Source of the DNA: Styela clava
Lineage: Eukaryota; Chordata; Ascidiacea; Stolidobranchia; Styelidae
NCBI RefSeq assembly: GCF_964204865.1
Contig: NC_135261.1
Coordinates: 3,224,001-3,288,000, forward strand
Length of the DNA stretch: 64,000 bases
Direction: 5' to 3'
Shown piece after piece: positions 1 to 48,737 of this stretch (its first letter is position 1; each line of letters begins with the position of its first letter). A program made the translations under genes and the position numbers. The notes under the pieces were generated by a model, which searched no databases, was not told the DNA's origin, and was given only the letters and a program-made list of their open reading frames with translations.

Positions 1-104
1 CGTTGAATACACCCGATCTCGTTCGATCTCGGAAGTTAAGCAACGTCGGGCTCGGTTAGTACTTGCATGGGTGACCGGCTGGGAATACCGGGTGCCGTAG
101 GCTT
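1..104 (+). rRNA. 5S rRNA gene, copy 1 (5' end cut by window)
   Basis: This is the RNA of the large ribosomal subunit central protuberance, transcribed by Pol III. The first 16 nt of the 120-nt gene lie outside the window. The internal promoter is visible in the RNA-like strand: A box around the GAAGTTAAGC motif and C box around GCATGGGTGACCGGCTGGG. The 3' end GCCGTAGGCTT pairs with the 5' GCCTACG seen in the complete copies to form helix I. It is followed at once by TTTT, the Pol III stop. Confidence 0.97.
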
Positions 105-750: not shown

Positions 751-1110
751 GATGCTAACAAAGCTGTAGGTAGTGATGATATATCAGTTAAAATGTTTAA
801 AAATGCTTGTTGTTCCGCCAACTCTATCCACTCTTTTAATCAGAGTTTCACAGATCTTGTGTACCCAGATATACAGAAAATAGCCAAGGTGATACTAGTC
901 TATAAAAAGGATCTAAGCATGATTCGAATAATTAAAGGCAGATCTGATGTGCCCCAGGGTTCCACTATTGGCCTGCTGTCATTTTTATGTTACATAAACG
1001 ATCTGCCTTTGGCATCTGCATTTTATTCAGCACTGTTTGGAGTTGATACTTCTCTGGTAAAATCGATATCCTGCGGTTCAGAACTCCACAATGGGCGAAT
1101 CAACCGAACA
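751..1110 (+). pseudogene. Non-LTR retrotransposon reverse transcriptase relic in 5S spacer, unit 1
   Basis: Translation shows the N-terminal RT block NKAVGSDDISVKMFKNA, then FNQSF, the strand VYPDIQKIAKVI and YKK, followed by VPQGS and the INDLPLAS block. The catalytic block reads FGVDTSLV where an active enzyme has F/YADD. About 120 residues that normally lie between the YKK block and VPQGS are missing, so this is an internally deleted, inactive fragment. It is on the same strand as the 5S gene. The superfamily is CR1/Jockey-like by motif style, but I cannot fix the clade. The fragment was inserted before amplification of the array because it sits at the same place in every complete unit. 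Confidence 0.85.
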
Positions 1111-1362
1111 AAATTATCATGCAATAAGTATTCTTATGGATATTCTTGAGCTATATGGATTTTTCGTGCTAGCTTCAGTTTTCCTTGTTCATAATAATGC
1201 AAATTTTTTATTAGTGGGCCAATGGAATTGCAGCATTAATACGCCGATACCAAATTTATAAAACCAGATATAATATATAACTAATGAGTTCCCAGCTCGC
1301 CAATGTTGCGCAACAATCATGCATGTCTCGCTTGATTCAACTCTCGTTTCGAACAGCCCTTC

Positions 1363-1370
1363 AATATAAA
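1363..1370 (+). promoter_or_regulatory. TATA-like box upstream of 5S genes
   Basis: AATATAAA lies at about -32 to -25 from the 5S start. The same box sits at this distance before each complete copy, for example 2773-2780 and 4183-4190, and is kept even in the divergent units. Upstream TATA-like boxes near -30 assist Pol III 5S transcription in several eukaryotes; the function here is inferred from position and conservation. Confidence 0.6.
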
Positions 1371-1394
1371 TGACGAATAGAAAGGTCTGTCTTC

Positions 1395-1514
1395 GCCTAC
1401 GACCATACCACGTTGAATACACCCGATCTCGTTCGATCTCGGAAGTTAAGCAACGTCGGGCTCGGTTAGTACTTGCATGGGTGACCGGCTGGGAATACCG
1501 GGTGCCGTAGGCTT
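1395..1514 (+). rRNA. 5S rRNA gene, copy 2
   Basis: This is the first complete copy and is exactly 120 nt. The 5' GCCTACG and 3' CGTAGGC form helix I. A box, intermediate element and C box are intact. It lies 1410 bp after copy 1 and is identical to it over the shared part. Confidence 0.98.
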
Positions 1515-1516
1515 TT
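1513..1516 (+). terminator. Pol III T-run terminator of 5S genes
   Basis: Four T residues follow GGC at the 3' end of the gene. Each copy has the same run directly after the helix I strand; copy 10 has five T. Confidence 0.75.
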
Positions 1517-2160
1517 CGCTTTCAAAGTAATTTTATTTATTCGATAACTTTTGAAGTAAACGCTTTTTAATGTGTTACAAAATGGCATTCAACAAATATA
1601 ATACATCTGGCTATAGTCCCTTAATTTTTTTTTCTGTTTTGCTTCGAAAAGGCGCTATATGCAAGGGGTATTTATGTTTATCTAACTGATATCTGTCGTT
1701 CAAACATATATAAAATGCTTTTCACAGTTTGTTAGATGAAAATATTTCTTAAGAACAAATTCTTCCACATTCCCTTGATTTGTAAGGCCCTTATTATTTT
1801 CCTAAGCTATGGGCATAAAATTTGTAATGGTTATTGAAAGTGTGCTGAGTCCCCCTCCACATATAACTTTCTAATTATACGGTAGTATAGCAGAACTACT
1901 ATTTTTTCGTTCTATTATCAAATACAACTTTTCGGCATTGCATTTGCTTTTTACACCTGCCATTTATTCAATATGTGTCCATCCTTATTCATCTTACGAA
2001 CAAAAACAAGCATTGAATTATGAGCCAAAACGCAGAGTATTAGTTAGGAACTATATAATAACCATATAATATAATGCTTGATTTTGTTTGCAAGATAAAT
2101 AAAATTGTATGGTGTGTTTTCATATTACCACAACACTGGAAATTGAAAAACAAATAGATA

Positions 2161-2520
2161 GATGCTAACAAAGCTGTAGGTAGTGATGATATATCAGTTA
2201 AAATGTTTAAAAATGCTTGTTGTTCCGCCAACTCTATCCACTCTTTTAATCAGAGTTTCACAGATCTTGTGTACCCAGATATACAGAAAATAGCCAAGGT
2301 GATACTAGACTATAAAAAGGATCTAAGCATGATTCGAATAATTAAAGGCAGATCTGATGTGCCCCAGGGTTCCACTATTGGCCTGCTGTCATTTTTATGT
2401 TACATAGACGATCTGCCTTTGGCATCTGCATTTTATTCAGCACTGTTTGGAGTTGATACTTCTCTGGTAAAATCAATATCCTGCGGTTCAGAACTCCACA
2501 ATGGGCGAATCAACCGAACA
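2161..2520 (+). pseudogene. RT relic, 5S unit 2
   Basis: Same fragment as in unit 1, but of the second spacer variant: the strand after KIAKVIL reads DYKK and the block before LPLAS reads IDDLP. Confidence 0.85.
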
Positions 2521-2804
2521 AAATTATCATGCAATAAGTATTCTTATGGATATTCTTGAGCTATATGGATTTTTCGTGCTAGCTTCAGTTTTCCTTGTTC
2601 ATAATAATGCAAATTTTTTATTAGTGGGCCAATGGAATTGCAGCATTAATACGCCGATACCAAATTTATAAAACCAGATATAATATATAACTAATGAGTT
2701 CCCAGCTCGCCAATGTTGCGCAACAATCATGCATGTCTCGCTTGATTCAACTCTCGTTTCGAACAGCCCTTCAATATAAATGACGAATAGAAAGGCCTAT
2801 CTTC

Positions 2805-2924
2805 GCCTACGACCATACCACGTTGAATACACCCGATCTCGTTCGATCTCGGAAGTTAAGCAACGTCGGGCTCGGTTAGTACTTGCATGGGTGACCGGCT
2901 GGGAATACCGGGTGCCGTAGGCTT
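2805..2924 (+). rRNA. 5S rRNA gene, copy 3
   Basis: Complete 120-nt copy, 1410 bp downstream of copy 2, with the same sequence, the same T-run and the same upstream TATA-like box. Confidence 0.98.
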
Positions 2925-3570
2925 TTCGCTTTCAAAGTAATTTTATTTATTCGATAACTTTTGAAGTAAACGCTTTTTAATGTGTTACAAAATGGCATTC
3001 AACAAATATGATACATCTGGCTATAGTCCCTTAATTTTTTTTTCTGTTTTGCTTCGAAAAGGCGCTATATGCAAGGGGTGTTTATGTTTATCTAACTGAT
3101 ATCTGTCGTTCAAACATATATAAAATGCTTTTCACAGTTTGTTAGATGAAAATATTTCTTAAGAACAAATTCTTCCACATTCCCTTGATTTGTAAGGCCC
3201 TTATTATTTTCCTAAGCTATGGGCATAAAATTTGTAATGGTTATTGAAAGTGTGCTGAGTCCCCCTCCACATATAACTTTCTAATTATACAGTAGTATAG
3301 CAGAACTACTATTTTTTCGTTCTATTATCAAATACAACTTTTCGGCATTGCATTTGCTTTTTACACCTGCCATTCATTCAATATGTGTCCATCCTTATTC
3401 ATCTTACGAACAAAAACAAGCATTGAATTATGAGCTAAAACGCAGAGTATTAGTTAGGAACTATATAATAACCATATAATATAATGCTTGATTTTGTTTG
3501 CAAGATAAATAAAATTGTATGGTGTGTTTTCATATTACCACAACACTGGAAATTGAAAAACAAATAGATA

Positions 3571-3930
3571 GATGCTAACAAAGCTGTAGGTAGTGATGAT
3601 ATATCAGTTAAAATGTTTAAAAATGCTTGTTGTTCCGCCAACTCTATCCACTCTTTTAATCAGAGTTTCACAGATCTTGTGTACCCAGATATACAGAAAA
3701 TAGCCAAGGTGATACTAGTCTATAAAAAGGATCTAAGCATGATTCGAATAATTAAAGGCAGATCTGATGTGCCCCAGGGTTCCACTATTGGCCTGCTGTC
3801 ATTTTTATGTTACATAAACGATCTGCCTTTGGCATCTGCATTTTATTCAGCACTGTTTGGAGTTGATACTTCTCTGGTAAAATCGATATCCTGCGGTTCA
3901 GAACTCCACAATGGGCGAATCAACCGAACA
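3571..3930 (+). pseudogene. RT relic, 5S unit 3
   Basis: Matches the unit 1 variant (VYKK, INDLP) with one private change, TKLS to TKSS, near the end. That change is shared with unit 5. Confidence 0.85.
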
Positions 3931-4214
3931 AAATCATCATGCAATAAGTATTCTTATGGATATTCTTGAGCTATATGGATTTTTCGTGCTAGCTTCAGTT
4001 TTCCTTGTTCATAATAATGCAAATTTTTTATTAGTGGGCCAATGGAATTGCAGCATTAATACGCCGATACCAAATTTATAAAACCAGATATAATATATAA
4101 CTAATGAGTTCCCAGCTCGCCAATGTTGCGCAACAATCATGCATGTCTCGCTTGATTCAACTCTCGTTTCGAACAGCCCTTCAATATAAATGACGAATAG
4201 AAAGGCCTGTCTTC

Positions 4215-4334
4215 GCCTACGACCATACCACGTTGAATACACCCGATCTCGTTCGATCTCGGAAGTTAAGCAACGTCGGGCTCGGTTAGTACTTGCATGG
4301 GTGACCGGCTGGGAATACCGGGTGCCGTAGGCTT
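4215..4334 (+). rRNA. 5S rRNA gene, copy 4
   Basis: Complete 120-nt copy, 1410 bp downstream of copy 3, sequence unchanged. Confidence 0.98.
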
Positions 4335-4980
4335 TTCGCTTTCAAAGTAATTTTATTTATTCGATAACTTTTGAAGTAAACGCTTTTTAATGTGTTACAA
4401 AATGGCATTCAACAAATATAATACATCTGGCTATAGTCCCTTAATTTTTTTTTCTGTTTTGCTTCGAAAAGGCGCTATATGCAAGGGGTATTTATGTTTA
4501 TCTAACTGATATCTGTCGTTCAAACATATATAAAATGCTTTTCACAGTTTGTTAGATGAAAATATTTCTTAAGAACAAATTCTTCCACATTCCCTTGATT
4601 TGTAAGGCCCTTATTATTTTCCTAAGCTATGGGCATAAAATTTGTAATGGTTATTGAAAGTGTGCTGAGTCCCCCTCCACATATAACTTTCTAATTATAC
4701 GGTAGTATAGCAGAACTACTATTTTTTCGTTCTATTATCAAATACAACTTTTCGGCATTGCATTTGCTTTTTACACCTGCCATTTATTCAATATGTGTCC
4801 ATCCTTATTCATCTTACGAACAAAAACAAGCATTGAATTATGAGCCAAAACGCAGAGTATTAGTTAGGAACTATATAATAACCATATAATATAATGCTTG
4901 ATTTTGTTTGCAAGATAAATAAAATTGTATGGTGTGTTTTCATATTACCACAACACTGGAAATTGAAAAACAAATAGATA

Positions 4981-5340
4981 GATGCTAACAAAGCTGTAGG
5001 TAGTGATGATATATCAGTTAAAATGTTTAAAAATGCTTGTTGTTCCGCCAACTCTATCCACTCTTTTAATCAGAGTTTCACAGATCTTGTGTACCCAGAT
5101 ATACAGAAAATAGCCAAGGTGATACTAGACTATAAAAAGGATCTAAGCATGATTCGAATAATTAAAGGCAGATCTGATGTGCCCCAGGGTTCCACTATTG
5201 GCCTGCTGTCATTTTTATGTTACATAGACGATCTGCCTTTGGCATCTGCATTTTATTCAGCACTGTTTGGAGTTGATACTTCTCTGGTAAAATCAATATC
5301 CTGCGGTTCAGAACTCCACAATGGGCGAATCAACCGAACA
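4981..5340 (+). pseudogene. RT relic, 5S unit 4
   Basis: Matches the unit 2 variant (DYKK, IDDLP), showing the alternation of two spacer types. Confidence 0.85.
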
Positions 5341-5624
5341 AAATTATCATGCAATAAGTATTCTTATGGATATTCTTGAGCTATATGGATTTTTCGTGCT
5401 AGCTTCAGTTTTCCTTGTTCATAATAATGCAAATTTTTTATTAGTGGGCCAATGGAATTGCAGCATTAATACGCCGATACCAAATTTATAAAACCAGATA
5501 TAATATATAACTAATGAGTTCCCAGCTCGCCAATGTTGCGCAACAATCATGCATGTCTCGCTTGATTCAACTCTCGTTTCGAACAGCCCTTCAATATAAA
5601 TGACGAATAGAAAGGCCTATCTTC

Positions 5625-5744
5625 GCCTACGACCATACCACGTTGAATACACCCGATCTCGTTCGATCTCGGAAGTTAAGCAACGTCGGGCTCGGTTAGT
5701 ACTTGCATGGGTGACCGGCTGGGAATACCGGGTGCCGTAGGCTT
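5625..5744 (+). rRNA. 5S rRNA gene, copy 5
   Basis: Complete 120-nt copy, 1410 bp downstream of copy 4, sequence unchanged. Confidence 0.98.
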
Positions 5745-6390
5745 TTCGCTTTCAAAGTAATTTTATTTATTCGATAACTTTTGAAGTAAACGCTTTTTAA
5801 TGTGTTACAAAATGGCATTCAACAAATATGATACATCTGGCTATAGTCCCTTAATTTTTTTTTCTGTTTTGCTTCGAAAAGGCGCTATATGCAAGGGGTG
5901 TTTATGTTTATCTAACTGATATCTGTCGTTCAAACATATATAAAATGCTTTTCACAGTTTGTTAGATGAAAATATTTCTTAAGAACAAATTCTTCCACAT
6001 TCCCTTGATTTGTAAGGCCCTTATTATTTTCCTAAGCTATGGGCATAAAATTTGTAATGGTTATTGAAAGTGTGCTGAGTCCCCCTCCACATATAACTTT
6101 CTAATTATACAGTAGTATAGCAGAACTACTATTTTTTCGTTCTATTATCAAATACAACTTTTCGGCATTGCATTTGCTTTTTACACCTGCCATTCATTCA
6201 ATATGTGTCCATCCTTATTCATCTTACGAACAAAAACAAGCATTGAATTATGAGCTAAAACGCAGAGTATTAGTTAGGAACTATATAATAACCATATAAT
6301 ATAATGCTTGATTTTGTTTGCAAGATAAATAAAATTGTATGGTGTGTTTTCATATTACCACAACACTGGAAATTGAAAAACAAATAGATA

Positions 6391-6750
6391 GATGCTAACA
6401 AAGCTGTAGGTAGTGATGATATATCAGTTAAAATGTTTAAAAATGCTTGTTGTTCCGCCAACTCTATCCACTCTTTTAATCAGAGTTTCACAGATCTTGT
6501 GTACCCAGATATACAGAAAATAGCCAAGGTGATACTAGTCTATAAAAAGGATCTAAGCATGATTCGAATAATTAAAGGCAGATCTGATGTGCCCCAGGGT
6601 TCCACTATTGGCCTGCTGTCATTTTTATGTTACATAAACGATCTGCCTTTGGCATCTGCATTTTATTCAGCACTGTTTGGAGTTGATACTTCTCTGGTAA
6701 AATCGATATCCTGCGGTTCAGAACTCCACAATGGGCGAATCAACCGAACA
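6391..6750 (+). pseudogene. RT relic, 5S unit 5
   Basis: Matches the unit 1/3 variant, including the TKSS change of unit 3. Confidence 0.85.
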
Positions 6751-7034
6751 AAATCATCATGCAATAAGTATTCTTATGGATATTCTTGAGCTATATGGAT
6801 TTTTCGTGCTAGCTTCAGTTTTCCTTGTTCATAATAATGCAAATTTTTTATTAGTGGGCCAATGGAATTGCAGCATTAATACGCCGATACCAAATTTATA
6901 AAACCAGATATAATATATAACTAATGAGTTCCCAGCTCGCCAATGTTGCGCAACAATCATGCATGTCTCGCTTGATTCAACTCTCGTTTCGAACAGCCCT
7001 TCAATATAAATGACGAATAGAAAGGCCTGTCTTC

Positions 7035-7154
7035 GCCTACGACCATACCACGTTGAATACACCCGATCTCGTTCGATCTCGGAAGTTAAGCAACGTCGGG
7101 CTCGGTTAGTACTTGCATGGGTGACCGGCTGGGAATACCGGGTGCCGTAGGCTT
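7035..7154 (+). rRNA. 5S rRNA gene, copy 6
   Basis: Complete 120-nt copy, 1410 bp downstream of copy 5. It opens the unit whose spacer is a mosaic of two variants. Confidence 0.98.
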
Positions 7155-7800
7155 TTCGCTTTCAAAGTAATTTTATTTATTCGATAACTTTTGAAGTAAA
7201 CGCTTTTTAATGTGTTACAAAATGGCATTCAACAAATATAATACATCTGGCTATAGTCCCTTAATTTTTTTTTCTGTTTTGCTTCGAAAAGGCGCTATAT
7301 GCAAGGGGTATTTATGTTTATCTAACTGATATCTGTCGTTCAAACATATATAAAATGCTTTTCACAGTTTGTTAGATGAAAATATTTCTTAAGAACAAAT
7401 TCTTCCACATTCCCTTGATTTGTAAGGCCCTTATTATTTTCCTAAGCTATGGGCATAAAATTTGTAATGGTTATTGAAAGTGTGCTGAGTCCCCCTCCAC
7501 ATATAACTTTCTAATTATACGGTAGTATAGCAGAACTACTATTTTTTCGTTCTATTATCAAATACAACTTTTCGGCATTGCATTTGCTTTTTACACCTGC
7601 CATTTATTCAATATGTGTCCATCCTTATTCATCTTACGAACAAAAACAAGCATTGAATTATGAGCCAAAACGCAGAGTATTAGTTAGGAACTATATAATA
7701 ACCATATAATATAATGCTTGATTTTGTTTGCAAGATAAATAAAATTGTATGGTGTGTTTTCATATTACCACAACACTGGAAATTGAAAAACAAATAGATA

Positions 7801-8160
7801 GATGCTAACAAAGCTGTAGGTAGTGATGATATATCAGTTAAAATGTTTAAAAATGCTTGTTGTTCCGCCAACTCTATCCACTCTTTTAATCAGAGTTTCA
7901 CAGATCTTGTGTACCCAGATATACAGAAAATAGCCAAGGTGATACCAGTCTATAAAAGGGATCTAAGCATGATTCGAATAATTAAAGGCAGATCTGATGT
8001 GCCCCAGGGTTCCACTATTGGCCTGCTGTCATTTTTATGTTACATAAACGATCTGCCTTTGGCATCTGCATTTTATTCAGCCCTGTTTGGAGTTGATACT
8101 TCTCTGGTAAAATCAATATCCTGCGGTTCAGAACTCCACAATGGGCGAATCAACCGAACA
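7801..8160 (+). pseudogene. RT relic, 5S unit 6
   Basis: A third variant reading VIPVYKRD. The proline gives the usual IPVYK of active RTs. The upstream part of this unit is still of the unit 2/4 type, so a recombination junction lies before about 7945. Confidence 0.85.
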
Positions 8161-8445
8161 AAATTATCATGCAATAAGTATTCTTATGGATATTCTTGAG
8201 CTTCATGGATTTTTCGTGCTTGCTTCAGATTTCCTTGTTCACAATAATGCAAATTTTTTATTAGTGGACCGATGGAATTGCAGAATTAATACGCCGAGAC
8301 TAAATTTACAAAACGAGATCTAATAAATAACTGATGACTTCCCAGCTCGCCAATGTTGCGCAACAATCATAGATGTCTCGCTTGATTTAACTCTCGTTTC
8401 GAACAGCCCTTCAATATAAAAGACCGAATAGAAATGCCTATATTC

Positions 8446-8565
8446 GCCTACGACCATACCACGTTGAATACACCCGATCTCGTTCGATCTCGGAAGTTAA
8501 GCAACGTCGGGCTCGGTTAGTACTTGCATGGGTGACCGGCTGGGAATACCGGGTGCCGTAGGCTT
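8446..8565 (+). rRNA. 5S rRNA gene, copy 7
   Basis: Complete 120-nt copy, 1411 bp after copy 6. The flanking spacer has diverged by small indels while the gene has not. Confidence 0.98.
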
Positions 8566-9206
8566 TTCGCTTTCAAAGTAATTTTATTTATTCAATAACC
8601 TTTGAAGTAAACGCTTTTTAATGTGTTACAAAATGGCATTCAACAAATATAATACATCTGGCTATAGTCCCTTAATTTTTTTTTTCTGTTTTGCTTCGAA
8701 AAGGCGCCATACGCAAGGGGTGTTTATCTAACTGATATCTGTCGTTCAAACATATATATAATGCTTTTCACAGTTTGTTAGATGAAAATATTTCTTAAGA
8801 ACAAATTCTTCCACATTCCCTTGATTTGTAAGGCCCTTATTATTTTCCTAAGCTATGGGCATAAAATTTGTAATGGTTATTGAAAGTGTGCTGAGTCCCC
8901 CTCCACATATAACTTTCTAATTATACGGTAGTATAGCAGAACTACTATTTTTTCGTTCTATTATCAAATACAACTTTTCGGCATTGCATTTGCTTTTTAC
9001 ACCTGCCATTTATTCAATATGTGTCCATCCTTATTCATCTTACGAACAAAAACAAGCATTGAATTATGAGCCAAAACGCAGAGTATTAGTTAGGAACTAT
9101 ATAATAACCATATAATATAATGCTTGATTTTGTTTGCAAGATAAATAAAATTGTATGGTGTGTTTTCATATTACCACAACACTGGAAATTGAAAAACAAA
9201 TAGATA

Positions 9207-9566
9207 GATGCTAACAAAGCTGTAGGTAGTGATGATATATCAGTTAAAATGTTTAAAAATGCTTGTTGTTCCGCCAACTCTATCCACTCTTTTAATCAGA
9301 GTTTCACAGATCTTGTGTACCCAGATATACAGAAAATAGCCAAGGTGATACCAGTCTATAAAAGGGATCTAAGCATGATTCGAATAATTAAAGGCAGATC
9401 TGATGTGCCCCAGGGTTCCACTATTGGCCTGCTGTCATTTTTATGTTACATAAACGATCTGCCTTTGGCATCTGCATTTTATTCAGCCCTGTTTGGAGTT
9501 GATACTTCTCTGGTAAAATCAATATCCTGCGGTTCAGAACTCCACAATGGGCGAATCAACCGAACA
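9207..9566 (+). pseudogene. RT relic, 5S unit 7
   Basis: Same third variant as unit 6 (VIPVYKRD, INDLP, FGVDT). Confidence 0.85.
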
Positions 9567-9851
9567 AAATTATCATGCAATAAGTATTCTTATGGATATT
9601 CTTGAGCTTCATGGATTTTTCGTGCTTGCTTCAGATTTCCTTGTTCACAATAATGCAAATTTTTTATTAGTGGACCGATGGAATTGCAGAATTAATACGC
9701 CGAGACTAAATTTACAAAACGAGATCTAATAAATAACTGATGACTTCCCAGCTCGCCAATGTTGCGCAACAATCATAGATGTCTCGCTTGATTTAACTCT
9801 CGTTTCGAACAGCCCTTCAATATAAAAGACCGAATAGAAATGCCTATATTC

Positions 9852-9971
9852 GCCTACGACCATACCACGTTGAATACACCCGATCTCGTTCGATCTCGGA
9901 AGTTAAGCAACGTCGGGCTCGGTTAGTACTTGCATGGGTGACCGGCTGGGAATACCGGGTGCCGTAGGCTT
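9852..9971 (+). rRNA. 5S rRNA gene, copy 8
   Basis: Complete 120-nt copy, 1406 bp after copy 7, sequence unchanged. Confidence 0.98.
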
Positions 9972-10632
9972 TTCGCTTTCAAAGTAATTTTATTTATTCA
10001 ATAACCTTTGAAGTAAACGCTTTTTAATGTGTTACAAAATGGCATTCAACAAATATAATACATCTGGCTATAGTCCCTTAATTTTTTTTTTCTGTTTTGC
10101 TTCGAAAAGGCGCCATACGCAAGGGGTGTTTATCTAACTGATATCTGTCGTTCAAACATATATATAATGCTTTTCACAGTTTGTTAGATGAGTATATTTC
10201 TTAAAGACATTCTATTAATTAGAATGAATTTTTCCACATTCCCTTGATTTGTAAGGCCCTTATTATTTTCCTAATCTATGGGCATAAAATTTGGAAAGGT
10301 TATTGAAAGTGTGCTGAGTCCCCATCCATATATAACTTTCTAATTATACGGTAGTATAGCAGAACTACTATTTTTTCGTTCTATTATCAAATACAACTTT
10401 TCGGCATTGCATTTGCCTTTTACACCTACTATTTATTCAATATGTGTCCATCCTTATTCATCTTTCGAACAAAAACATGCATTGAATTATGAGCCAAAAC
10501 GCAGGATATTACTTAGAAACTATATAATAACCATATAATATAATGCTTGATTTTGTTTGCAAGGTAATAAAATAAAATTGTATGGTGTGTTTTCATATTA
10601 CCACACCACTGGAAATTGAAATACAATTAGAT

Positions 10633-10980
10633 AAATGCTAACAAAGCTGTAGGTAGTGATGATATTTCAGTTAAAATGTTTGAAAATGCTTGTTCTTTCG
10701 CCAACTTTATCCACTTTTTTAATCAGAGTTTCACAGATCTTGTGTAACCAGATATACTGAAAATTGCCAAGGGATACCACTCTATAAAAAGGATCTAAGC
10801 ATGATTCGAATATTTAAAGGCAGATCTGATGTGTCCCAGGGTTCCTCGATTGGCCTGCTGTCATTTTTATGCTAAATAAACGATCTACCTTTGGCATCTG
10901 CATTTTATTTAACACTGTTTGCAGATGATACTTCTCTGGTAAATTCAATATCCTGTGGTTCAAAACTCCACAATGTGGCG
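10633..10980 (+). pseudogene. RT relic with intact FADD block, 5S unit 8
   Basis: This divergent copy keeps the catalytic FADDTSLVNS block that units 1-7 have lost, but has stops elsewhere: TAA after CTTGTG and TAA before INDLP. It is thus not a functional enzyme, only a less homogenised branch of the same insertion. Confidence 0.8.
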
Positions 10981-11278
10981 AATCAACCGAACAAAATTAT
11001 CATGCAATAAGTATTCTTATGGATATTCTTGAGCTTCATGGATTTTTCGTGCTTGCTTCAGATTTCCTTGTTCACAATAATGCAAATTTTTTATTAGTGG
11101 ACCGATGGAATTGCAGAATTAATACGCCGAGACTAAATTTACAAAACGAGATCTAATAAATAACTGATGAGTTCCCAGCTGGCCAATGTTGCGCAACAAT
11201 CATAGATGTCTCGCTTGATTTAACTCTCGTTTCGAACAGCCCTTCAATATAAAAGACCGAATAGAAATGCCTATATTC

Positions 11279-11398
11279 GCCTACGACCATACCACGTTGA
11301 ATACACCCGATCTCGTTCGATCTCGGAAGTTAAGCAACGTCGGGCTCGGTTAGTACTTGCATGGGTGACCGGCTGGGAATACCGGGTGCCGTAGGCTT
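11279..11398 (+). rRNA. 5S rRNA gene, copy 9
   Basis: Complete 120-nt copy, 1427 bp after copy 8. The gene is unchanged although its spacer is clearly more divergent than in units 1-6. Confidence 0.98.
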
Positions 11399-12058
11399 TT
11401 CGCTTTCAAAGTAATTTTATTTATTCAATAACCTTTGAAGTAAACGCTTTTTAATGTGTTACAAAATGGCATTCAACAAATATAATACATCTGGCTATAG
11501 TCCCTTAATTTTTTTTTTCTGTTTTGCTTCGAAAAGGCGCCATACGCAAGGGGTGTTTATCTAACTGATATCTGTCGTTTTAACATATATATAATGCTTT
11601 TCACAGTTTGTTAGATGAGTATATTTCTTAAAGACATTCTATTAATTAGAATGAATTTTCCCACATTCCCTTGATTTGTAAGGCCCTTATTATTTTCCTA
11701 ATCTATGGGCATAAAATTTGGAAAGGTTATTGAAAGTGTGCTGAGTCCCCATCCATATATAACTTTCTAATTATACGGTAGTATAGCAGAACTACTATTT
11801 TTTCGTTCTATTATCAAATACAACTTTTCGGCATTGCACTTGCCTTTTACACCTACTATTTATTCAATATGTGTCCATCCTTATTCATCTTTCGAACAAA
11901 AACATGCATTGAATTATGAGCCAAAACGCAGGATATTACTTAGAAACTATATAATAACCATATAATAGAATGCTTGATTTTGTTTGCAAGGTAATAAAAT
12001 AAAATTGTATGGTGTGTTTTCATATTACCACACCACTGGAAATTGAAATACAATTAGA

Positions 12059-12410
12059 TAAATGCTAACAAAGCTGTAGGTAGTGATGATATTTCAGTTA
12101 AAATGTTTGAAAATGCTTGTTCTTTCGCCAACTCTATCCACTTTTTTAATCAGAGTTTCACAGATCTTGTGTAACCAGATATACTGAAAATTGCCAAGGG
12201 ATACCACTCTATAAAAAGGATCTAAGCATGATTCGAATATTTAAAGGCAGATCTGATGTGTCCCAGGGTTCCTCGATTGGCCTGCTGTCATTTTTATGCT
12301 AAATAAACGATCTACCTTTGGCATCTGCATTTTATTTAACACTGTTTGCAGATGATACTTCTCTGGTAAATTCAATATCCTGTGGTTCAAAACTCCACAA
12401 TGTGGCGAAT
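12059..12410 (+). pseudogene. RT relic with intact FADD block, 5S unit 9
   Basis: Near-identical to the unit 8 relic, with FADDTSLVNS kept and the same two TAA stops. Confidence 0.8.
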
Positions 12411-12705
12411 CAACCGAACAAAATTATCATGCAATAAGTATTCTTATGGATATTCTTGAGCTTCATGAATTTTTCGTGCTTGCTTCAGATTTCCTTGTTA
12501 ATAATAATGCAAATTTTTTATTAGTGGACCGATGGAATTGCAGAATTATTACGCCGAGACTAAATTTACAAAACGAGATCTAATATATAACTGATGAGTT
12601 CCCAACTCGCCAATGTTGCGCAACAATCATAGATGTCTCGCTTGATTTAACTCTCGTTTCGAACAGCCCTTCAATATAAAACACCGAATAGAGATGCCTA
12701 TATTC

Positions 12706-12825
12706 GCCTACGACCATACCACGTTGAATACACCCGATCTCGTTCGATCTCGGAAGTTAAGCAACGTCGGGCTCGGTTAGTACTTGCATGGGTGACCGGC
12801 TGGGAATACCGGGTGCCGTAGGCTT
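12706..12825 (+). rRNA. 5S rRNA gene, copy 10 (last of array)
   Basis: Complete 120-nt copy, 1427 bp after copy 9. The downstream T-run is five T followed by GCC instead of four T followed by CGC. Its spacer stays recognisable only to about 13427, where the array ends. Confidence 0.97.
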
Positions 12826-13427: not shown

Positions 13428-14724
13428 TGTAGGGCTGGGCAAAATATTCGAATAGCGAATCGAATATTAAATTATTCGAATGGCATTTTACTATTCGAAT
13501 ATCGGGTACCACGTGATCTGCGCCGCTTCACTTGGACACAGAACGTCTCTGAATCGATCGTGATTCGGCGCGAGAATTCACCTACAGCGCACGCTAACAG
13601 ACAAAAGCGACAAATTTGAAAAATCGTCTTTGCGTTGTGGTGTTATTTGTTTTCTTTCCTTTTCAATCGTTCATTTCAATTCCTTAGTTTGCAAAAAAAG
13701 GTACCGAAACCGTTCCCTAAATTCAGAAATGTCAAATTAAATTAAAATAAATATCCCAGATTTTAAACTCTGTATGATTGGCGGCATGTGATTAGCCGTT
13801 TCATGCAGGAACCAAACATAAATTTGTTTAACGAAAATTAAAAGTTGAAATAACTTTCGCCTGAAACCATGCATAGTATAACACGAACAAGCTATGATCA
13901 GAAAAGAAATGGCAGGTAATAGTTCTTTTAATGTACTTTCGAATATTTCTTCAGTGATCCCTTTCATTCTTGACCAAGGAATGTTTCGAAAATATAAACA
14001 TTTTACTCGGGCATGCATGGCGGGTGTAGTGTAGAAATCGTGAATTGGAGTAGGACGTAAAATCAATCGTGAATTTCGATGTAACAACGCGCACTGTCTC
14101 GTAAACGAATTGTTGTATCATCGGAAATGATTACATTCGTTATATTTTGAGCATTTTTGCACTAATAAATAGGGCGTGACATTAACAAAATCGTCAAGAG
14201 AAGTAAAAGTGAATTTGCAAATTCCTTAAAAAAAATTGTGAATTACTCGGTAAGGATATCAGCTATAACGATCGCGAGGTTTGTTGAAAGAAAACGTCGA
14301 ACTTGAAAGAGTTGTTATAATTAGCGCCTGGCCAGCCATTGGGCACATAAGTACAAAAGCGCAATTTATTTCAGCATTAGGTGGCATATGTAAATTATTA
14401 TTCAAGAAGCGCTGTTTATTAACGCCATCTTGTCATATGGACATGCAGAAATGCCTCTACCGCCGAATTATTTAGTCACTATTTCAAATCAACATTCGGG
14501 ATAGACGCAATCACAGCTTTGCGAGGTTTGTCTGTAAAGTAACATAGACAACATAGAAATGCATAGCAAAGTTAATTAAGGTATTGTCTTAATAAATATC
14601 TACATCCCGGTATCGATAATAATATTACCGTTCGCTTAATATTGTGACGGTGAATTTACAAACGTTGATAAGTAATATGAAAGCCAACGCAAATGATAAA
14701 AATTAGAATATTAATAATTTAAAT
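13428..14724. other. Insertion or breakpoint DNA at the 5S array edge
   Basis: The spacer breaks off after AAATTGTATG. The new sequence starts TAGGGCTGGGCAAAATATTCG and runs through several inverted ATTCGAAT motifs (to about 13505), a style typical of the ends of hAT-like DNA transposons. No matching right end is visible. The remainder has no gene I can support; two open frames (13737-14087 minus, 14281-14475 plus) show no recognisable domain. Confidence 0.5.
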
Positions 14725-14930
14725 CAATCCTCAACTTTTAAAGTGAACGCTTTTAATGTGTTACAAAATGGCATTCTACGAATAGAATACATCTGGCTAT
14801 ATTTCCTTAATTTTTTTTACTGTTTTGCTTCGAAAAGGCGCTTATACGCAAGGGGTGTTTATCTAACTAATATCTATCGTTTCAACATATATATAATGCT
14901 TTTCACAGTTTGTTAGATGAATATATTTGA
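14725..14930 (+). repeat. Detached 5S spacer fragment without 5S gene
   Basis: From AACTTTTAAAGTGAACGC to GTTAGATGAATATATTT this matches the left part of the spacer, for example 12856-13040, with scattered changes. It is a broken-off piece of a former array unit and shows that the array once extended further or was rearranged here. Confidence 0.85.
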
Positions 14931-38548: not shown

Positions 38549-39302
38549 TAAAGATGCTGGAATTTTTTTGTAAAGTTTAATTCAAGGAATTGCTGCCCAA
38601 ACTGCTGCTAATAAAACATGACAGCTATTTTTATTTAAGTTCCTCTTTAGCTTACAAAGTTTTTATTGTTTATTCGAGAAAACTGCTGTCTGAGCAAGAT
38701 AGGTATTTTGTTGAAGACTTTATATTCGATGTCTTACTATCTTCGTAATATATTAAAAATAAAACCACGCGATGATTTGTAACGAAACATTTTTAGATAT
38801 TTTGTACTCTCCAGAAAGTTCATGTTTGTTTGTTTGTGCCGATGCCAAACTCAAGGGACTATTGGGACTCTAATCAGATATTCATATGATACGGTGCGTG
38901 TCCGGTTAACCCTTAGTTTGTCCATCATCTTGTTTTATATAAGGATATGAGCTGTTTTATTCAGACTGTAAAAATTAAATGGAAGGATTCATGAGAGTTA
39001 CATTGAAGGATGAGTTAGGCATTAGAGGCGAATGGGAGACTCAGGAGGCAATATTGAAGTGAATAACTTTGGAAAGATATTTCTGTAGCTGCTTTCTAAG
39101 GATAAAAATCAATGAAAAGATAATAAATATGCTGAAACATCCACGTTATTTGATTTCATTATAGTAAACTCTAGTTAAATTTTTTGTTTTTTCAAGAAAA
39201 CAGCTGTGAGAGGTATTTTTATTTAGAGTATTGATGTTTGATTCTTGCGTGACGCATTACTTACACCACATCTTCAGATAAGCAAGTAACATGATACATC
39301 CA

Positions 39303-39318
39303 CCCCCCCCCCCCCCCC
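39303..39318. repeat. C homopolymer (16 C)
   Basis: The same place in units 2 to 5 has only four to seven C, so the run has expanded in unit 1. Confidence 0.85.
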
Positions 39319-41440
39319 ACAGGTATCACGACAAAAAAATTCATTGTGTTTCTGTAATACCTAAACCTATATTATAATACAAAAGCCGCATAGTTGTCTG
39401 TTTTTTGTAAGTTGTCTATATGTTAAATTCTTTATTGGTATTGTTTTATCTACGCTCACACGCTCGAAAATTGCGCGTAAAAATACAAAAAAAAATTCAA
39501 TTAACTCCTAATTTATGAGCTGATGTATGACAAATAAATAAAACGCACCACTAAAGAAATTTTATCTATTAAACATGAATCGCAAAGAGAATAATAATGT
39601 GTTGGTCTCTAACTTTTTCAACTATATTTTAAGGGTATCAAACCAAAAATGATAATAAGCTGAATAATCAGTTCAAACTATCAAACAAGATAAGAATACA
39701 TAAAAATGACATGGCACAAGAGTAAATAGTGATTAACTATGTTGAAATCTGATAAATCGTATAATGAATACTATCTGTAAACTATTATATATATGAAAAA
39801 ATCTGTTTGGTCGTTCAAACATTAAGGTAGTTGAACTAACTTCGGGAATGAAGTTATTAAAATAATATATATATCTTAAATACCCTGTACCACAAGGAAA
39901 TGTATTGCACCGCGAAGACGGCTGTTATATTTATCAGTTGCTTTTCAAGCGGTAATGCCTTTGTTTTATTCTTATTGTTTTTCCATACGACCAGTATAAT
40001 GTTACCTTCGTGTCTCGAGATATTTAGTATCTTTGTTCTTGTGACTATATTTAACAGAGATCAAGTATGGAAAGAATAGGAAGCATATCTTTAAAGCACT
40101 ATTTTATCTGTGGCCCGTAAATGGCAAAGGAAAAGGGGGCATTCATTTATCGAACGCTCACTTCTTTAATCTTTTCGAAAGACGTAAGGTCTCAAAAATG
40201 TTTTGTTTATTTTTTGCCGAGCGTCTTGTCAGATTTTGACAGAGTATGGTCGGATGAAACGGTTGACCAATTGGGTTGTTTTTTGACATATGATACTACT
40301 GCAGGTAGCTTAAGGAAATGAGCTGGAATCATGTAGCAAAGTATAATTCCTGAACTTAGATGTCGGAAAGACTTTTAATAAATCTACATATTCTATTTTG
40401 TGGCGTTAACTTACAGCTCTTTTGATTTCGGTCAGTGTAAAATATTTTTTAAATTACTAAATAATTTTTGAACTATTCAACATTTAGCAACTAGTAGTTA
40501 CTAACTACCCATTTGAATAGAAATAAACCAAAATTTATATGATACATATTTATTTGCTTGAAAAATTCGTCTTTGCTGCTGAAATAGCGGCATTTAATAT
40601 GATAGTTCTTGTCTGAACAGGCCTGACCTCGATCAGACAAAACGATACGAAAATACGTTTGTGTAAGTGTGCAGCAAGATTTCCGAATGGAATAGAATGG
40701 TTTACTCTTCATACTTGCTTAGTTCTATCTTTGATAACTTCTTATTGTCACGATATATTGTCGAATAACTCGAGGATTATAAAGCTATGTAATTTAGCAA
40801 ATCTGGTATGTTTTAAAGTTAAACCATTGCTATTGTTTGATTTGCTTAAGTAAGGTTAGAAAATAAATTGAACACAGCTGCCAAAAGGAGTGAATTGCTA
40901 TGTTGAAATGTCAAGTATCCTACTGTGAATACTATTTGTAAACTATTATATAAAAAAAAAATTTGTTGTGTAAAACATCGTGACTTTTAAACCAACTTGA
41001 ATGAATGAGGTAAAAATTCCACAAAAAATTGTAAGTCAAAGAAAATAGAGGGGTTATATTTTTGTTGTTGGTATTCAAGCGTTGGTGCCTTATTTTGATC
41101 GTATCATATTTTTATACTATCAATATATCGTTACTATCATGTATAGGTAAAAAATAAATCCCTTCGACCATGTAAGACTGGACCACATGGCAAGTATCAG
41201 TTGCGTCTTAATATCCCAATTTCATCTGTGGCGCGTAAACGTCAAAAAGAAAAACGGCGTTGGTGTATAGAATGCCAACTTATTCCAATTTTATTTGAAA
41301 AACGAAATGTCTTAGGATTCATTGTGTATTTCTTGCCGAGCGTTATGTTAGACTTGAACAGGATTTATAAGTTCGGTGGCTATATGGAATGCAAACAATT
41401 TTTTTAAACAAATTATACTATATTTATTATCTTAATAAAT

Positions 41441-41535
41441 GGGCTACCAAGATTGCGCACAAACTGAACCCTAACCTTGTACACATATTATATTTAGGTT
41501 GTGCGCCATCTTGGTACACATACTTCGGGAGCTCC
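41441..41535. mobile_element. Snap-back MITE alpha, unit 2
   Basis: Ends GGGCTACCAAG and CTTGGTACACATACTTCGGG are inverted around an AACCTTGTACACATA core. It is absent from the same place in unit 1. Confidence 0.65.
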
Positions 41536-42093
41536 AATGAATGTTCTGAAATTTTTTAGCAAAGTTTAACTCTGGTAATTGCTGCCCAAATTGCTGCTTA
41601 TGAAGTCTTACACTTAATTTTAATCAAGCACCTCCTCATTCAAGAAAACTGCCGTCTGTGCGAGATAGGTATTTTATTTAAGACTTTATATTTGACGTCT
41701 TGCTATCGACGTAATATATATTACAATCGCGGAACGTTTTGTAACGAAACATTTTTAGATATTTTGTATTCTTCATGAGGTTCATGTTTGTGTGTATCTA
41801 TGCCATTTATTTTCGGGACTCTAATCAGATATTCATATGATACGGCGCGTGCCCGGTCAACCCTTAGTTTGCCCATCATCTTTATTTATATTTATAGATG
41901 TGATATGTAAAAAGTAAATGGAGGGATTCATGAGAGTTACATTGAGGGCTGAGTTAGACATTAGACGCGACTAGGGGACTCAGGGGGCATTATTGAAGTG
42001 AATAACTTCGGAAGGATATTTCTGTAGTTGCATTTTAAATATAAAAATCAAGTAAAAGATTATAAATATTTTAAACAATATATTTATTTCTAT

Positions 42094-42205
42094 GGCGCTC
42101 CAGCAGTATGTGCACCAAGATGGCGCACAACCTGATAACTCTAACCTTGTACACATACTATGTTAAGGTTGTGCGCCATCTTGGTGCACATTCTTCAGGA
42201 GCACC
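42094..42205. mobile_element. Snap-back MITE beta, unit 2
   Basis: GGCGCTCCAGCAGTATGTGC and CAAGATGGCGCACAACCT on the left pair with AGGTTGTGCGCCATCTTGG and TTCTTCAGGAGCACC on the right. Absent from unit 1. Confidence 0.8.
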
Positions 42206-44424
42206 GATTTTATTATAGATACCTTCAGTTGATTTCTTTGTTTTTTCAAGAAAACAGCTGAGAAAGGTGTTTTTATTTAGAGTATTGATATTTGATTCTT
42301 GCGTGACCCCTTTTCTTACACCACATCTTCAGATAAGCAAGTAACACGATACATTGATACATCCACCCCCCACAGGTATCACGACAAAAAATTCATTGTG
42401 TTTCTGTAATACCTAATGTTATATTATAATACAAAAGCCGCATAGTTGTCTGTTTTTTGTAAGTTGTCTATATGTTAAATCCAATATTTGTATTGTTTTA
42501 TCTACGCCCACACGCTCGAAAATTGCGCGTGAAATTAAAAACAAATTCAAATACTCCTAATTTATGAGGTGATGTATGGAAAACAATTCAAACGCACCAC
42601 TAAATGGATTTTATCTATGAACCATGAATGGCAGAAATTTTTAACTTATTCAACTAGTCAATTAGTAAACAAGGTAAGAAAAAGGATAAATTTGAATGAC
42701 ATGGCACAAGAATAAATGGTGATTAACTATGTTGAAATCTGATAAATCGTACAATGAATACTATATGTAATTTGTTATATAAAAAAATCGGTTTGGTCGT
42801 TCAAACATTAGGGTAGTTGAACTAACTTCGGGAATGAAGTTATTAAAATAATATATATATCTTAAATACCCGGTACCACAAGGAAATCTATTGCACCGCG
42901 AAGACGGCTGTTCTATTTATCAGTTGCTTTTCAAGCGGTAATGCCTTTGTTTTATTCTAATTGTTTTTCCATACGACCAGTATAATGTAACCTTCGTGTC
43001 TCGAGATTTAGTATCTTTGTTCTTGTGACTATATTTAACAGAGATCAAGTACGGAAAGAATAGGAAGCATATCTTTAAAGCACTATTTTTTCTGTGTCCC
43101 GTAAATGGCAAAGGAAAAGGGGGCATTCATTTATCGAACGCTCACTTCTTTAATCTTTTCGTAAGACGTAAGGTCTCAAAAATGTTTTGTTTATTTTTTG
43201 CCGAGCGTCTTGTCAGATTTTGACAGAGTATGGTCGGAAGAAACGGTTGACATATTGGGTTGTTTTTTAACATATGATACTACTGCTAGTAGCTTAAGGA
43301 AATGTGCTGGAATCTTGTAGCAAAGTATAATTCCTGAACTTAGATGTCGGAAAGACTTTTAATAAATCTACATATTCTATTTTGTGGCGTTAACTTACAG
43401 CTCTTTTGATTCGGTCAGTGTAAAATATTTTTTAAATTTCTAAATAATTTTTGAACTATTCAACATTTAGCAACTAGTAGTTACTAACTACCCATTTGAA
43501 TAGAAATAAACCAAAATTTATATGATACATATTTATTTGCTTGCAAAATTCGTCTTAGCTGCTGAAATAGCGGCATTTAATATGATAGTTCTTGTCTGAA
43601 CAGGCCTGACCTCGATCAGACAAAACGATACGAAAATACGTTTGTGTAAGTGTGCAGCAAGATTTCCGAATGGAATAGAATGGTTTACTCTTCATTCTTG
43701 CTTAGTTCTATCTTCGATAACTTCTTATTGTCACGATATATTGTCGAATAACTCGAGGCTTATAAAGCTATTTAATTTATCAAATCTGGTATGTTTTAAA
43801 GTTAAACCATTGCTATTGTTTGATTTGCTTGAGTAAGGTTAGAAAATAAATTGAACACAGCTGCCAAAAGGAGTGAATTGCTATGTTGAAATGTCAAGTA
43901 TCCTACTGTGAATACTATTTGTAAACTATTATATAAAAAAAAAAAATTGTTGTGTAAAACATCGTGACTTTTAAACCAACTTGAATGAATGAGGTAAAAA
44001 TTCCACAAAAAATTGTATGTCAAAGAAAATAGAGGTGTCATATTTTTGTTGTTGTTATTCAAGCGTTGGTGCCTTATTTTGATCGTATCATATTTTTATA
44101 CTATCAATATATCGTTATTATCATGTATAGGTAAAAAATAAATCCCTTCGACCATGTAAGACGGGACCACATGGCAAGTATCAGTTGCGTCTTTATATCC
44201 CAATTTCATCTGTGGCGCGTAAACGTCAAAATGAAAAACGGCATTGGTGTATAGAATGCCAACTTATTCCAATTTTATTTGAAAAACAAAATGTCTTAGG
44301 ATTCATTGTGTATTTCTTGCCGAGCGTTATGTTAGACTTGAACAGGATTTATAAGTTCGGTGGCTATATGGAATGCAAACAATTTTTTTAAACAAATTTT
44401 ACTATATTTATTATCTTAATAAAT

Positions 44425-44519
44425 GGACTACCAAGATTGCGCACAAACTGAACCCTAACCTTGTACACATATTATATTTAGGTTGTTCGCCATCTTGGTA
44501 CACATACTTCGGGAGCTCC
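44425..44519. mobile_element. Snap-back MITE alpha, unit 3
   Basis: Same element and site as in unit 2, with GGACTACC at the left end. Confidence 0.65.
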
Positions 44520-45078
44520 AGTGAATGTGCTGAAATTTTTTAGCAAAGTTTAACTCTGGTAATTGCTGCCCAAATTGCTGCTTATGAAGCCTTACACTTA
44601 ATTTTAATCAAGCACCTCCTCATTCAAGAAAACTGCCGTATGTGCGAGATAGGTATTTTATTTAAGACTTTATATTTGACGTCTTGCTATCGACGTAATA
44701 CATATTACAATCGCGGAACGTTTTGTAACGAAACATTTTTAGATATTTTGTATTCTTCATGATGTTCATGTTTATTTGTATCTATGCCATTTATTTTCGA
44801 GACTCTTAATCAGATATTCATATGATACGGCGCGTGCCCGGTCAACCCTTAGTTTGCCCATCATCTCTATCTATATTTATAGATGTGATATGTAAAAAGT
44901 AAATGGAGGGATTCATGAGAGTTACATTGAGGGCTGAGTTAGACATTAGACGCGACTAGGGGACTCAGGGGGCATTATTGAAGTGAATAACTTTGGAAGG
45001 ATATTTCTGTAGTTGCATTTTAAATATAAAAATCAAGTAAAAGATTATAAATATTTTAAACAATATATTTATTTCTAT

Positions 45079-45190
45079 GGCGCTCCAGCAGTATGTGCAC
45101 CAAGATGGCGCACAACCTGATAACTCTAACCTTGTACACATACTATGTTAAGGTTGTGCGCCATCTTGGTGCACATTCTTCAGGAGCACC
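45079..45190. mobile_element. Snap-back MITE beta, unit 3
   Basis: Same element and site as in unit 2; no difference seen. Confidence 0.8.
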
Positions 45191-46643
45191 GATTTTATTA
45201 TAGATACCTTCAGTTGATTTCTTTGTTTTTTCAAGAAAACAGCTGAGAAAGGTGTTTTTATTTAGAGTATTGATATTTGATTCTTGCGTGACCCCTTTTC
45301 TCACACCACATCTTCAGATAAGCAAGTAACACGATACATTGATACATCCACCCCCCACAGGTATCACGACAAAAAATTCATTGTGTTTCTGTAATACCTA
45401 ATGTTATATTATAATACAAAAGCCGCATAGTTGTCTGTTTTTTGTAAGTTGTCTATATGTTAAATCCAATATTTGTATTGTTTTATCTACGCCCACACGC
45501 TCGAAAATTGCGCGTGAAATTAAAAACAAATTCAAATACTCCTAATTTATGAGGTGATGTATGGAAAACAATTCAAACGCACAACTAAATGGATTTTATC
45601 TATGAACCATAAATGGCAAAAACTTTTAACCCATTCAACTAGTCAATTAGTAAACAAGGTAAGAAAAAGGATAAATTTGAATGACATGGCACAAGAATAA
45701 ATGGTGATTAACTATGTTGAAATCTGATAAATCGTACAATGAATACTATATGTAATTTGTTATATAAAAAAATCTGTTTGGTCGTTCAAACATTAGGGTA
45801 GTTGAACTAACTTCGGGAATGAAGTTATTAAAATAATATATATATCTTAAATACCCGGTACCACAAGGAAATCTATTGCACCGCGAAGACGGCTGTTCTA
45901 TTTATCAGTTGCTTTTCAAGCGGTAATGCCTCTGTTTTATTCTAATTGTTTTTCCATACGACCAGTATAATGTAACCTTCGTGTCTCGAGATTTAGTATC
46001 TTTGTTCTTGTGACTATATTTAACAGAGATCAAGTACGGAAAGAATAGGAAGCATATCTTTAAAGCACTATTTTTTCTGTGGCCCGTAAATGGCAAAGGA
46101 AAAGGGGGCATTCATTTATCGAACGCTCACTTCTTTAATCTTTTCGTAAGACGTAAGGTCTCAAAAATGTTTTGTTTATTTTTTGCCGAGCGGCTTGTCA
46201 GATTTTGACAGAGTATGGTCGGAAGAAACGGTTGACATATTGGGTTGTTTTTTAACATATGATACTACTGCTGGTAGCTTAAGGAAATGTGCTGGAATCT
46301 TGTAGCAAAGTTTAATTCCTGAACTTAGATGTCGGAAAGACTTTTAATAAATCTATATATTCTACTTTGTGGCGTTAACTTACAGCTCTTTTGATTTCGG
46401 TCAGTGTGAAATATTTTTTAAATTACTAAATAATTTTTAAACTATTCAACATTTAGTAACTACTAGGGATGGGCCGGGATTCGGATCCGGACTCGGATTC
46501 GAGTCGAAACCACGCATTTTTTGGACTCGGATTCGATTTCGAGTCCACGTCATTTTTACAGAGTCTATGATAAATTCTGTTTTTACTAATTTTTGCCTAT
46601 GTTTGTACTTTTACCTCTATAAATCTCAGTATATACCCTAACT

Positions 46644-46948
46644 CAGGGGTGGGCAAACTACGAACCGCGGGCCAAATCCGGCCCGTTGGGTAATTCAATG
46701 CCGTCCGATGCTGCCACAACCGAACTAAAACCAAATTTTGATGTTTTTGCAAAAAATAGCTCAAGGTATTTGTTGAGATCGTTCATTAAATTTAGTTTTG
46801 GCACGGGGATTATTGTTTTCCACTTTTGCTTTTGTAACACTCTAAATATTATGCATAAAATATAATTTTTTACGTCACATTTACAGGGCCCGCCAGTCTG
46901 AATGGGCGAAATTTTTGGCCCCGGGTCCAAAAACCTTGCCCATTCTTT
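46644..46948. mobile_element. hAT MITE with 8-bp target duplication CCCTAACT
   Basis: Left end CAGGGGTGGGCAAACTACG with CGGGCCAAATCCGGCCCG; right end carries the inverted GACCCGGGGCCAAA-like block. CCCTAACT flanks it at 46636-46643 and 46949-46956. The target has TA at its centre. Confidence 0.85.
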
Positions 46949-47123
46949 CCCTAACTGATTAAAACGCATGGTAACAACTATTGATCGCTCATAACAATGA
47001 TGTCGTCGCCAGTCGCCTTCAAAAACTATATATCCTTTTTGGTATACACGTGAACAATAGAATATGTGTTAGCGCAATATTTTTAAGTCTTCGATTCGCG
47101 TAAAAATGAAACATGCTCTAGAT

Positions 47124-48399: not shown

Positions 48400-48737
48400 C
48401 TCTAGATCAACCCAGGGGGGAATTATTCAATACCTCTTTTAAATCGAGTTTATTACGTGCAATCATTTCCCTAAAAAGAGAGCAATTGGAAACATGGAGA
48501 ATTTTAGAATTTTTACATGCACTACTAAATAAAAAGCGTCAAAAAGAAAAACGGCGTTGGTGTATAGAATGCCAACTTATTCCAATTTTATTTGAAAAAC
48601 AAAATGTCTTAGGATTCATTGTGTATTTCTTGCCGAGCGTTATGTTAGACTTGAACAGGATTTATAAGTTCGGTGGCTATATGGAATGCAAACAATTTTT
48701 TTAAACAAATTTTACTATATTTATTATCTTAATAAAT

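Follow-up and report, generated by a model that had tools for sequence, protein, structure and literature searches.

Long interspersed nuclear elements (LINEs), a name used here for retrotransposons without long terminal repeats (non-LTR), are already known to occur with arrays of 5S ribosomal RNA (rRNA) genes. According to the available excerpts of the papers cited here, Jockey-like LINEs of about 5 kb, for the most part associated with 5S genes, interrupt satellite arrays in Tribolium freemani (PMC11202950), and Mutsu, a 5S-specific non-LTR retrotransposon of zebrafish, has the 5S genes as its insertion targets (PMC11202950, PMC3706591). In Erythrinus erythrinus, Rex3 is found with 5S ribosomal DNA (rDNA), and the authors hypothesize insertion into the 5S rDNA and joint spread (PMC2944182). 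The 5S rDNA of pike shows spacer variants and higher-order organization, and the same paper cites a title on recurrent transposable elements with 5S rDNA in electric fish (PMC5437419). For cichlids, the excerpted text names transposons near 5S genes and no captured reverse transcriptase (RT). Here we describe a new instance: a fragment, identified by its sequence relationships as a relic of a non-LTR RT, in the spacers of a 5S array on contig C16 (NC_135261.1) of the ascidian Styela clava. The window, which is the whole stretch of DNA analyzed, comprises 64,000 nucleotides (C16:3224001-3288000) of a genome of 376.6 Mb in 379 contigs.

The C16 array is similar to that of T. freemani in that a non-LTR element is a regular part of the 5S array of one species, but differs in that a dead piece of 0.4 kb is found in every whole spacer and that the family is dispersed (PMC11202950). 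As with Mutsu, a non-LTR RT is found with 5S repeats; unlike Mutsu, the fragment lies in the spacer, its family is dispersed, and the target junction is absent (PMC11202950, PMC3706591). Co-location of a non-LTR element with 5S rDNA is shared with Rex3 of Erythrinus, whose association was seen by fluorescence in situ hybridization, whereas the C16 locus is read at the level of bases (PMC2944182). Unit variants and higher-order organization within 5S arrays are also found in pike, although no captured RT is noted in the excerpted part of that work (PMC5437419). In the excerpts of the open-licence literature, a body of work that leaves most subscription journals outside, we found no published example of a 5S array in which an RT relic is a constant component of every unit.

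Location of the fragment in the C16 array

Ten 5S genes, all on the forward strand, were identified in the window, the first of which is cut by the window edge, so that the window holds nine complete spacers. All nine carry the same RT fragment at the same place and on the same strand, in agreement with an earlier first-pass annotation of this DNA. A profile search (nhmmer) with a profile of the dispersed family described below locates it at unit positions 716-738 to 1113-1134, within the spacer and ~290 bp upstream of the next 5S gene, and tblastn with the 583-residue RT frame of a dispersed copy, L048, finds the same nine places with E-values of about 1e-10 to 1e-17. The array continues leftward into L016, the stretch that adjoins the window on the left on C16. 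The genes (Rfam) and the fragment copies (nhmmer with the family profile, and tblastn) are listed below in window coordinates.

1..103, + strand: 5S rRNA gene cut by the window edge, with its start in L016
705..1102, + strand: RT fragment copy 1, unit u0
1395..1513, + strand: 5S rRNA gene
2115..2512, + strand: RT fragment copy 2, unit u1
2805..2923, + strand: 5S rRNA gene
3525..3922, + strand: RT fragment copy 3, unit u2
4215..4333, + strand: 5S rRNA gene
4935..5332, + strand: RT fragment copy 4, unit u3
5625..5743, + strand: 5S rRNA gene
6345..6742, + strand: RT fragment copy 5, unit u4
7035..7153, + strand: 5S rRNA gene
7755..8152, + strand: RT fragment copy 6, unit u5
8446..8564, + strand: 5S rRNA gene
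9161..9558, + strand: RT fragment copy 7, unit u6
9852..9970, + strand: 5S rRNA gene
10589..10985, + strand: RT fragment copy 8, unit u7, edge type, FADD retained
11279..11397, + strand: 5S rRNA gene
12015..12412, + strand: RT fragment copy 9, unit u8, edge type, FADD retained; the 368-bp deletion joins at ~12254 (also BLAST against dispersed copies)
12706..12824, + strand: 5S rRNA gene of the last, broken unit

Measured from gene start to the next gene, units u1-u8 are 1410, 1410, 1410, 1410, 1411, 1406, 1427 and 1427 bp long. Three further RT-bearing units lie to the left of the window, Lb (5795-7164), Lc (7165-8574) and Ld (8575-9984, all in L016 coordinates); the 5S gene of Lb is shortened. 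These three places are also found by tblastn with the L048 frame (E-values of about 1e-10 to 1e-18 overall), and all 12 RT-bearing units, nine in the window and three in L016, match the family profile in both of its blocks with E-values of 5e-47 to 1e-39. The profile consists of 11 of the 13 distinct dispersed copies (L033 and L039 omitted) and gave no match, at E-values up to 10, to any of 15 reversed sequences, to the leftmost or the last, broken unit of the array, or to one unit of the second 5S locus on contig C14.

The motifs by which the fragment was first recognized are largely, but not uniformly, retained. NKAVGSDDIS is present in all nine window copies. VPQGS and INDLPLAS are each found in seven of the nine, with u7 and u8 reading VSQGS, and u1 and u3 reading IDDLPLAS. 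The core units have FGVD, u7 and u8 have FADD, and Lb has FGDD; the dispersed copy L048 also reads FADD.

Relationship to a dispersed LINE family

Pfam searches with three core-type translations of the fragment (E-values up to 1) and with seven fragment pieces including edge copies (E-values up to 10) returned no RT model, the weak matches being to unrelated families below cut-offs, and two fragment queries returned nothing from PDB. At first, this looked like a refutation of the proposed RT identity. However, a genome search, for which the query was a 471-bp stretch spanning the fragment in the last complete unit and in which the best 40 of 41 candidates were scored, listed 12 matches in the array and 37 elsewhere, or 49 in all. 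The latter are located on eleven contigs (C1, C2, C4, C5, C6, C8, C9, C10, C16, C17 and C18) with identities of 67-88%. The dispersed copy L048 contains an open frame of 583 residues that matches Pfam RVT_1 (E-value of 2.1e-34, residues 232-475); its first PDB match is an "RNA-directed DNA polymerase" chain (8c8j_A), followed by LINE-1 ORF2 and R2, and then by bacterial RTs. Two stretches of the fragment, 49-72 residues long, are 58-71% identical to the L048 RT, and most units have an additional stretch of 12 residues (tblastn). The identity is therefore settled by dispersed relatives in the genome that carry RVT_1. Thus, the protein search that the first-pass annotation had proposed is negative in Pfam and PDB for the fragment itself and positive for RVT_1 by way of L048, whose RT frame alone represented the family in the protein searches, and its view of the fragment as a non-LTR RT fossil is upheld. 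By sequence comparison, the fragment is shown to be a relic of a dispersed LINE, which, from its motifs only, may belong to a clade such as those of the CR1/L2/Jockey group.

The 18 loci L029-L046 correspond to 13 distinct dispersed copies. Among 11 of these, eight are mutually 96-99% identical, and the identities of L034, L035 and L040 with the others are 77-93%. Because the array piece is less like the dispersed copies than most of these are like each other, it is probably old, or derived from an older branch of the family. No parent element was detected near the array by tblastn of the fragment against L009-L015, L016 up to base 4500 and the part of the window that begins at 13431 (best E-value of 0.20), and a search of viral contigs gave no relative of the fragment.

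Truncation and internal deletion

The internal deletion that the first-pass annotation described is real, with 368 bp missing relative to dispersed family members. BLAST places the same two fragment blocks on L047 with a 368-bp difference, and in several dispersed loci the two blocks are separated by 375 bp where the array copy has 7. The deletion removes the residues of the L048 frame between about 230-236 and 365, which constitute the first part of the RT domain. In each of the 12 array units, the match covers profile positions 420-423 to 674 in one block and 1041-1042 to 1200 in the other, and both ends, as well as the deletion, are common to all 12 copies.

The 5′ starts of the dispersed copies relative to L048 vary from 3083 to 4128, with three at 3083. 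Most of their 3′ ends are bounded by the length of the fetched locus, and the common 3′ end is that of four extended copies, three of which stop at L048 positions 6498, 6502 and 6512 (within 15 bp) and the fourth at 6165. The three copies with the common end start at 3741, 3743 and 4044. Such varied 5′ starts combined with a common 3′ end are the behavior of a LINE. The array piece ends at ~4292, some 2.2 kb before the 3′ end of the dispersed copies, so that the junction able to reveal a choice of target is missing. As aligned to L048, the array piece is cut at both ends and is not an ordinary 3′-anchored insertion.

Sequence divergence of the array copies

The fragment drifts at the rate of the remaining spacer, as shown by u1 and u8, which differ at 36 of 504 positions (7.1%) in the fragment, 30 of 580 (5.2%) in the 5′ spacer, 19 of 200 (9.5%) in the 3′ spacer and none of 119 in the 5S gene. 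Substitutions at codon positions 1/2/3 of the 399-bp frame number 9/9/9 for u1-u8 and 9/10/9 for u1-u7, and 4/11/7 (u1-Lb) and 7/8/10 (Lb-u8) for the pairs that include the left edge. The edge units have frameshifts and stops within the fragment.

Two unit variants, with 10 sites of difference, alternate along u1-u4, with u1 identical to u3, and u2 to u4 (window 1395-7034). A 2820-bp dimer has thus recently been copied, either as a higher-order repeat or as a duplicate of the assembly. Unit u5 equals u1 across the whole 5′ spacer (0/586 differences) and has an edge-like 3′ spacer (17/200 from u1, 2/201 from u7), while u6 resembles the edge type at its two ends and the core over most of the length between them. 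Lb has a mixed 5′ part, and its last 200 bp are core-like (0/200 from Lc). These mosaic units, together with the exact 2820-bp dimer, are read as traces of crossover or conversion. An older state, FADD or FGDD together with a u1-u8 spacer divergence of 5-9%, survives at the array edges and has been overwritten in the core, which makes the direction of homogenization readable. The spacers of C16 and C14 are unrelated to each other and alike within each locus, a pattern that, with the mosaics and exact dimers, is that of concerted evolution. All 14 matches of a genome search with the C16 5′ spacer lie in the C16 cluster. A tree of the fragment (159 columns, four of the 12 array copies and 11 of the 13 dispersed copies, unrooted and with a bootstrap not fully settled) groups the four array copies together, set apart by a branch supported at 98/97.

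Comparison with the 5S locus on C14

The first-pass annotation had assigned the fragment to every complete 5S rDNA repeat, which is not borne out for the genome as a whole. A second, larger 5S locus on C14 contains at least 47 genes between 1.615 and 1.807 Mb (best 47 of 13568 candidates). Eight loci of about 3.1 kb each (L001-L008) were sampled from it; these share only the 128-bp gene region with the C16 units at an E-value of 1e-5, and six of the eight central C14 genes match the C16 gene without a single difference in these 128 bp. No RT was found in the eight loci by tblastn with the L048 frame, and none of the 49 genome matches listed for the fragment family is on C14. Since the C14 spacer is unrelated and lacks the fragment in the eight loci read, the statement is true of the C16 locus only.

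Upstream of the gene, both loci have a TATA-like stretch, TAAATATAAATAACCGAATA on C14 with near-matches on C16. This stretch (AATATAAAT..CGAATA) is all that the spacers of the two loci share, and it may represent an external RNA polymerase III promoter element.

Other features of the C14 locus were seen in the same sample. A stretch of 10 bp between GATCTCG direct repeats is missing from ten of 21 C14 5S genes, which often alternate with full-length genes; this share is biased because the loci were picked around full-length genes. In the C14 spacer of L005 (about 1980-2200), a stretch resembling an antisense tRNA was noted by eye; it has a B-box-like GGTTCGAATTCC and may be the head of a short interspersed nuclear element. 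ARAGORN found no tRNA gene in the C14 spacer of the four loci tried.

Origin of the fragment

We consider it very probable that one doubly truncated, internally deleted LINE piece entered the spacer of the minor C16 5S locus once and was spread by array turnover, without function. A piece of the dispersed LINE would have come once into a spacer of this locus in a presumably untargeted event, and the likely order of steps would be insertion, 3′ loss, internal deletion and spread. Unequal crossing-over and gene conversion would have carried the fragment to neighboring repeats, where it would now be passive spacer filler with neither a coding nor a regulatory function. Several observations weigh against this account. 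The fragment alone matches no RT in Pfam or PDB, and the tree is short, partially sampled, unrooted and unsettled in its bootstrap. The deletion junction is placed only approximately, not to the base, and the absence from C14 is based on a best-candidate genome search, which is not exhaustive. In u0-u6, seven of the nine copies in the window, an open frame of 133 residues spans the deletion. No empty site was found among the units read, and the only fragment-free unit, the leftmost one (L016 4508-5794), has a replaced interior. In this unit, both spacer ends are present, the 5S gene is short by 10 bp, and the interior is other sequence that includes an inverted-repeat element (by eye). As its interior has been replaced by other sequence, the unit may have lost the fragment.

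Alternatively, a 5S gene may have landed in DNA that already held the dead LINE piece, with spacer and relic amplified together and no insertion into a spacer. We give this somewhat less than an even chance; it differs from the entry of a LINE piece into an existing spacer only in the first step, and the confidences in the two overlap. The absence of the family 3′ end, and the continuation of family sequence past the fragment on both sides, are consistent with such a capture. Furthermore, the C16 and C14 spacers are nearly unrelated except for the TATA-like stretch by the gene, and the C16 spacer may therefore have come as a block. The leftmost unit, which has both spacer ends without the fragment, fits instead a spacer older than the fragment, although loss explains it equally well. 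Thus, of the history put forward by the first-pass annotation, one insertion into an ancestral spacer followed by concerted evolution, a single event and homogenization are supported, while insertion is not distinguished from the capture of DNA already holding the LINE piece.

Two further explanations have very little in their favor. The hint of 5S targeting in the first-pass annotation finds no support, and we regard it as highly improbable that a 5S-targeting LINE, like Mutsu in zebrafish, inserted and left this remnant, even though such LINEs exist in fish according to the available excerpts (PMC11202950, PMC3706591). The family is dispersed, with 37 matches elsewhere than at the array, and the 5S genes, which are the sites of Mutsu-type insertion, are intact and alike throughout u1-u8. 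The flanks fetched for L029-L048 (20 loci, 13 distinct copies; 1.5 kb, longer for two loci) contained neither 5S nor C16 spacer sequence at an E-value of 0.01, and the same holds for the longer 3′ flanks of four dispersed copies. With no listed match on C14 either, there is therefore no support for a 5S-seeking element. In addition, the fragment lies in the spacer, well before the next gene, and has no 3′ junction. Maintenance of the fragment by selection, whether for an encoded peptide, for regulation or for a boundary role, is equally hard to credit. Its presence in 12 of 12 whole spacers of the C16 type and the 133-residue open frame of u0-u6 speak in favor of selection. However, the four unit pairs show no third-position excess, the rate of change equals that of the remaining spacer, the deletion takes the first part of the RT domain, and the C14 loci read do without the fragment. 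Given the absence of a third-position excess, and the frameshifts and stops in edge units, the open frame is best taken as a product of chance.

In SINE3 elements, dispersed copies combine a head derived from 5S with the tail of a LINE. The C16 family does not fit this description, as no 5S similarity was found at the 13 distinct dispersed copies.

Flanking features

At the right end of the array, the spacer similarity of the last unit ceases at 13429, just short of the expected start of the RT fragment. The sequence that breaks this unit at 13430 begins with TAGGGCTGGGCAA, which we take to resemble a hAT terminal repeat; an exact-word search of the window gave no second end to match it. One spacer piece lies beyond this break:

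14715..14928, + strand: detached 5′ spacer piece, 86% identical, without the RT fragment

To the left, a short element with CAGGGTGGCCCAAAA inverted ends and TATA on both flanks is located inside the leftmost unit (L016 about 5460-5673, by eye), and 72 bp at L016 1069-1140, ~3.3 kb left of the array, are 79% identical to the C16 3′ spacer. A degenerate 5S orphon is present at window 55248-55430, consisting of a 38-column match to the gene-upstream region followed by a decayed 5S-like stretch (24-bp 5S match). Elsewhere in the window, a 1554-bp segment occurs in two tandem copies with 100% identity (57417-60526), and several kilobase-scale direct repeats with identities of about 79-97% are found at 39152-53944.

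Implications

One tentative and, in our view, rather unlikely reading is that the C16 spacer, part of which is a LINE relic, marks a locus that either arose recently or is dying out and that is homogeneous with the main locus in the gene alone, through selection or through interchromosomal conversion limited to the gene. The C16 array provides a clean case, read at the level of bases, of a transposon piece that became a fixed part of the unit of a gene array. It also serves as a warning that a feature possessed by every repeat at one locus need not be present in the repeats of the whole genome.

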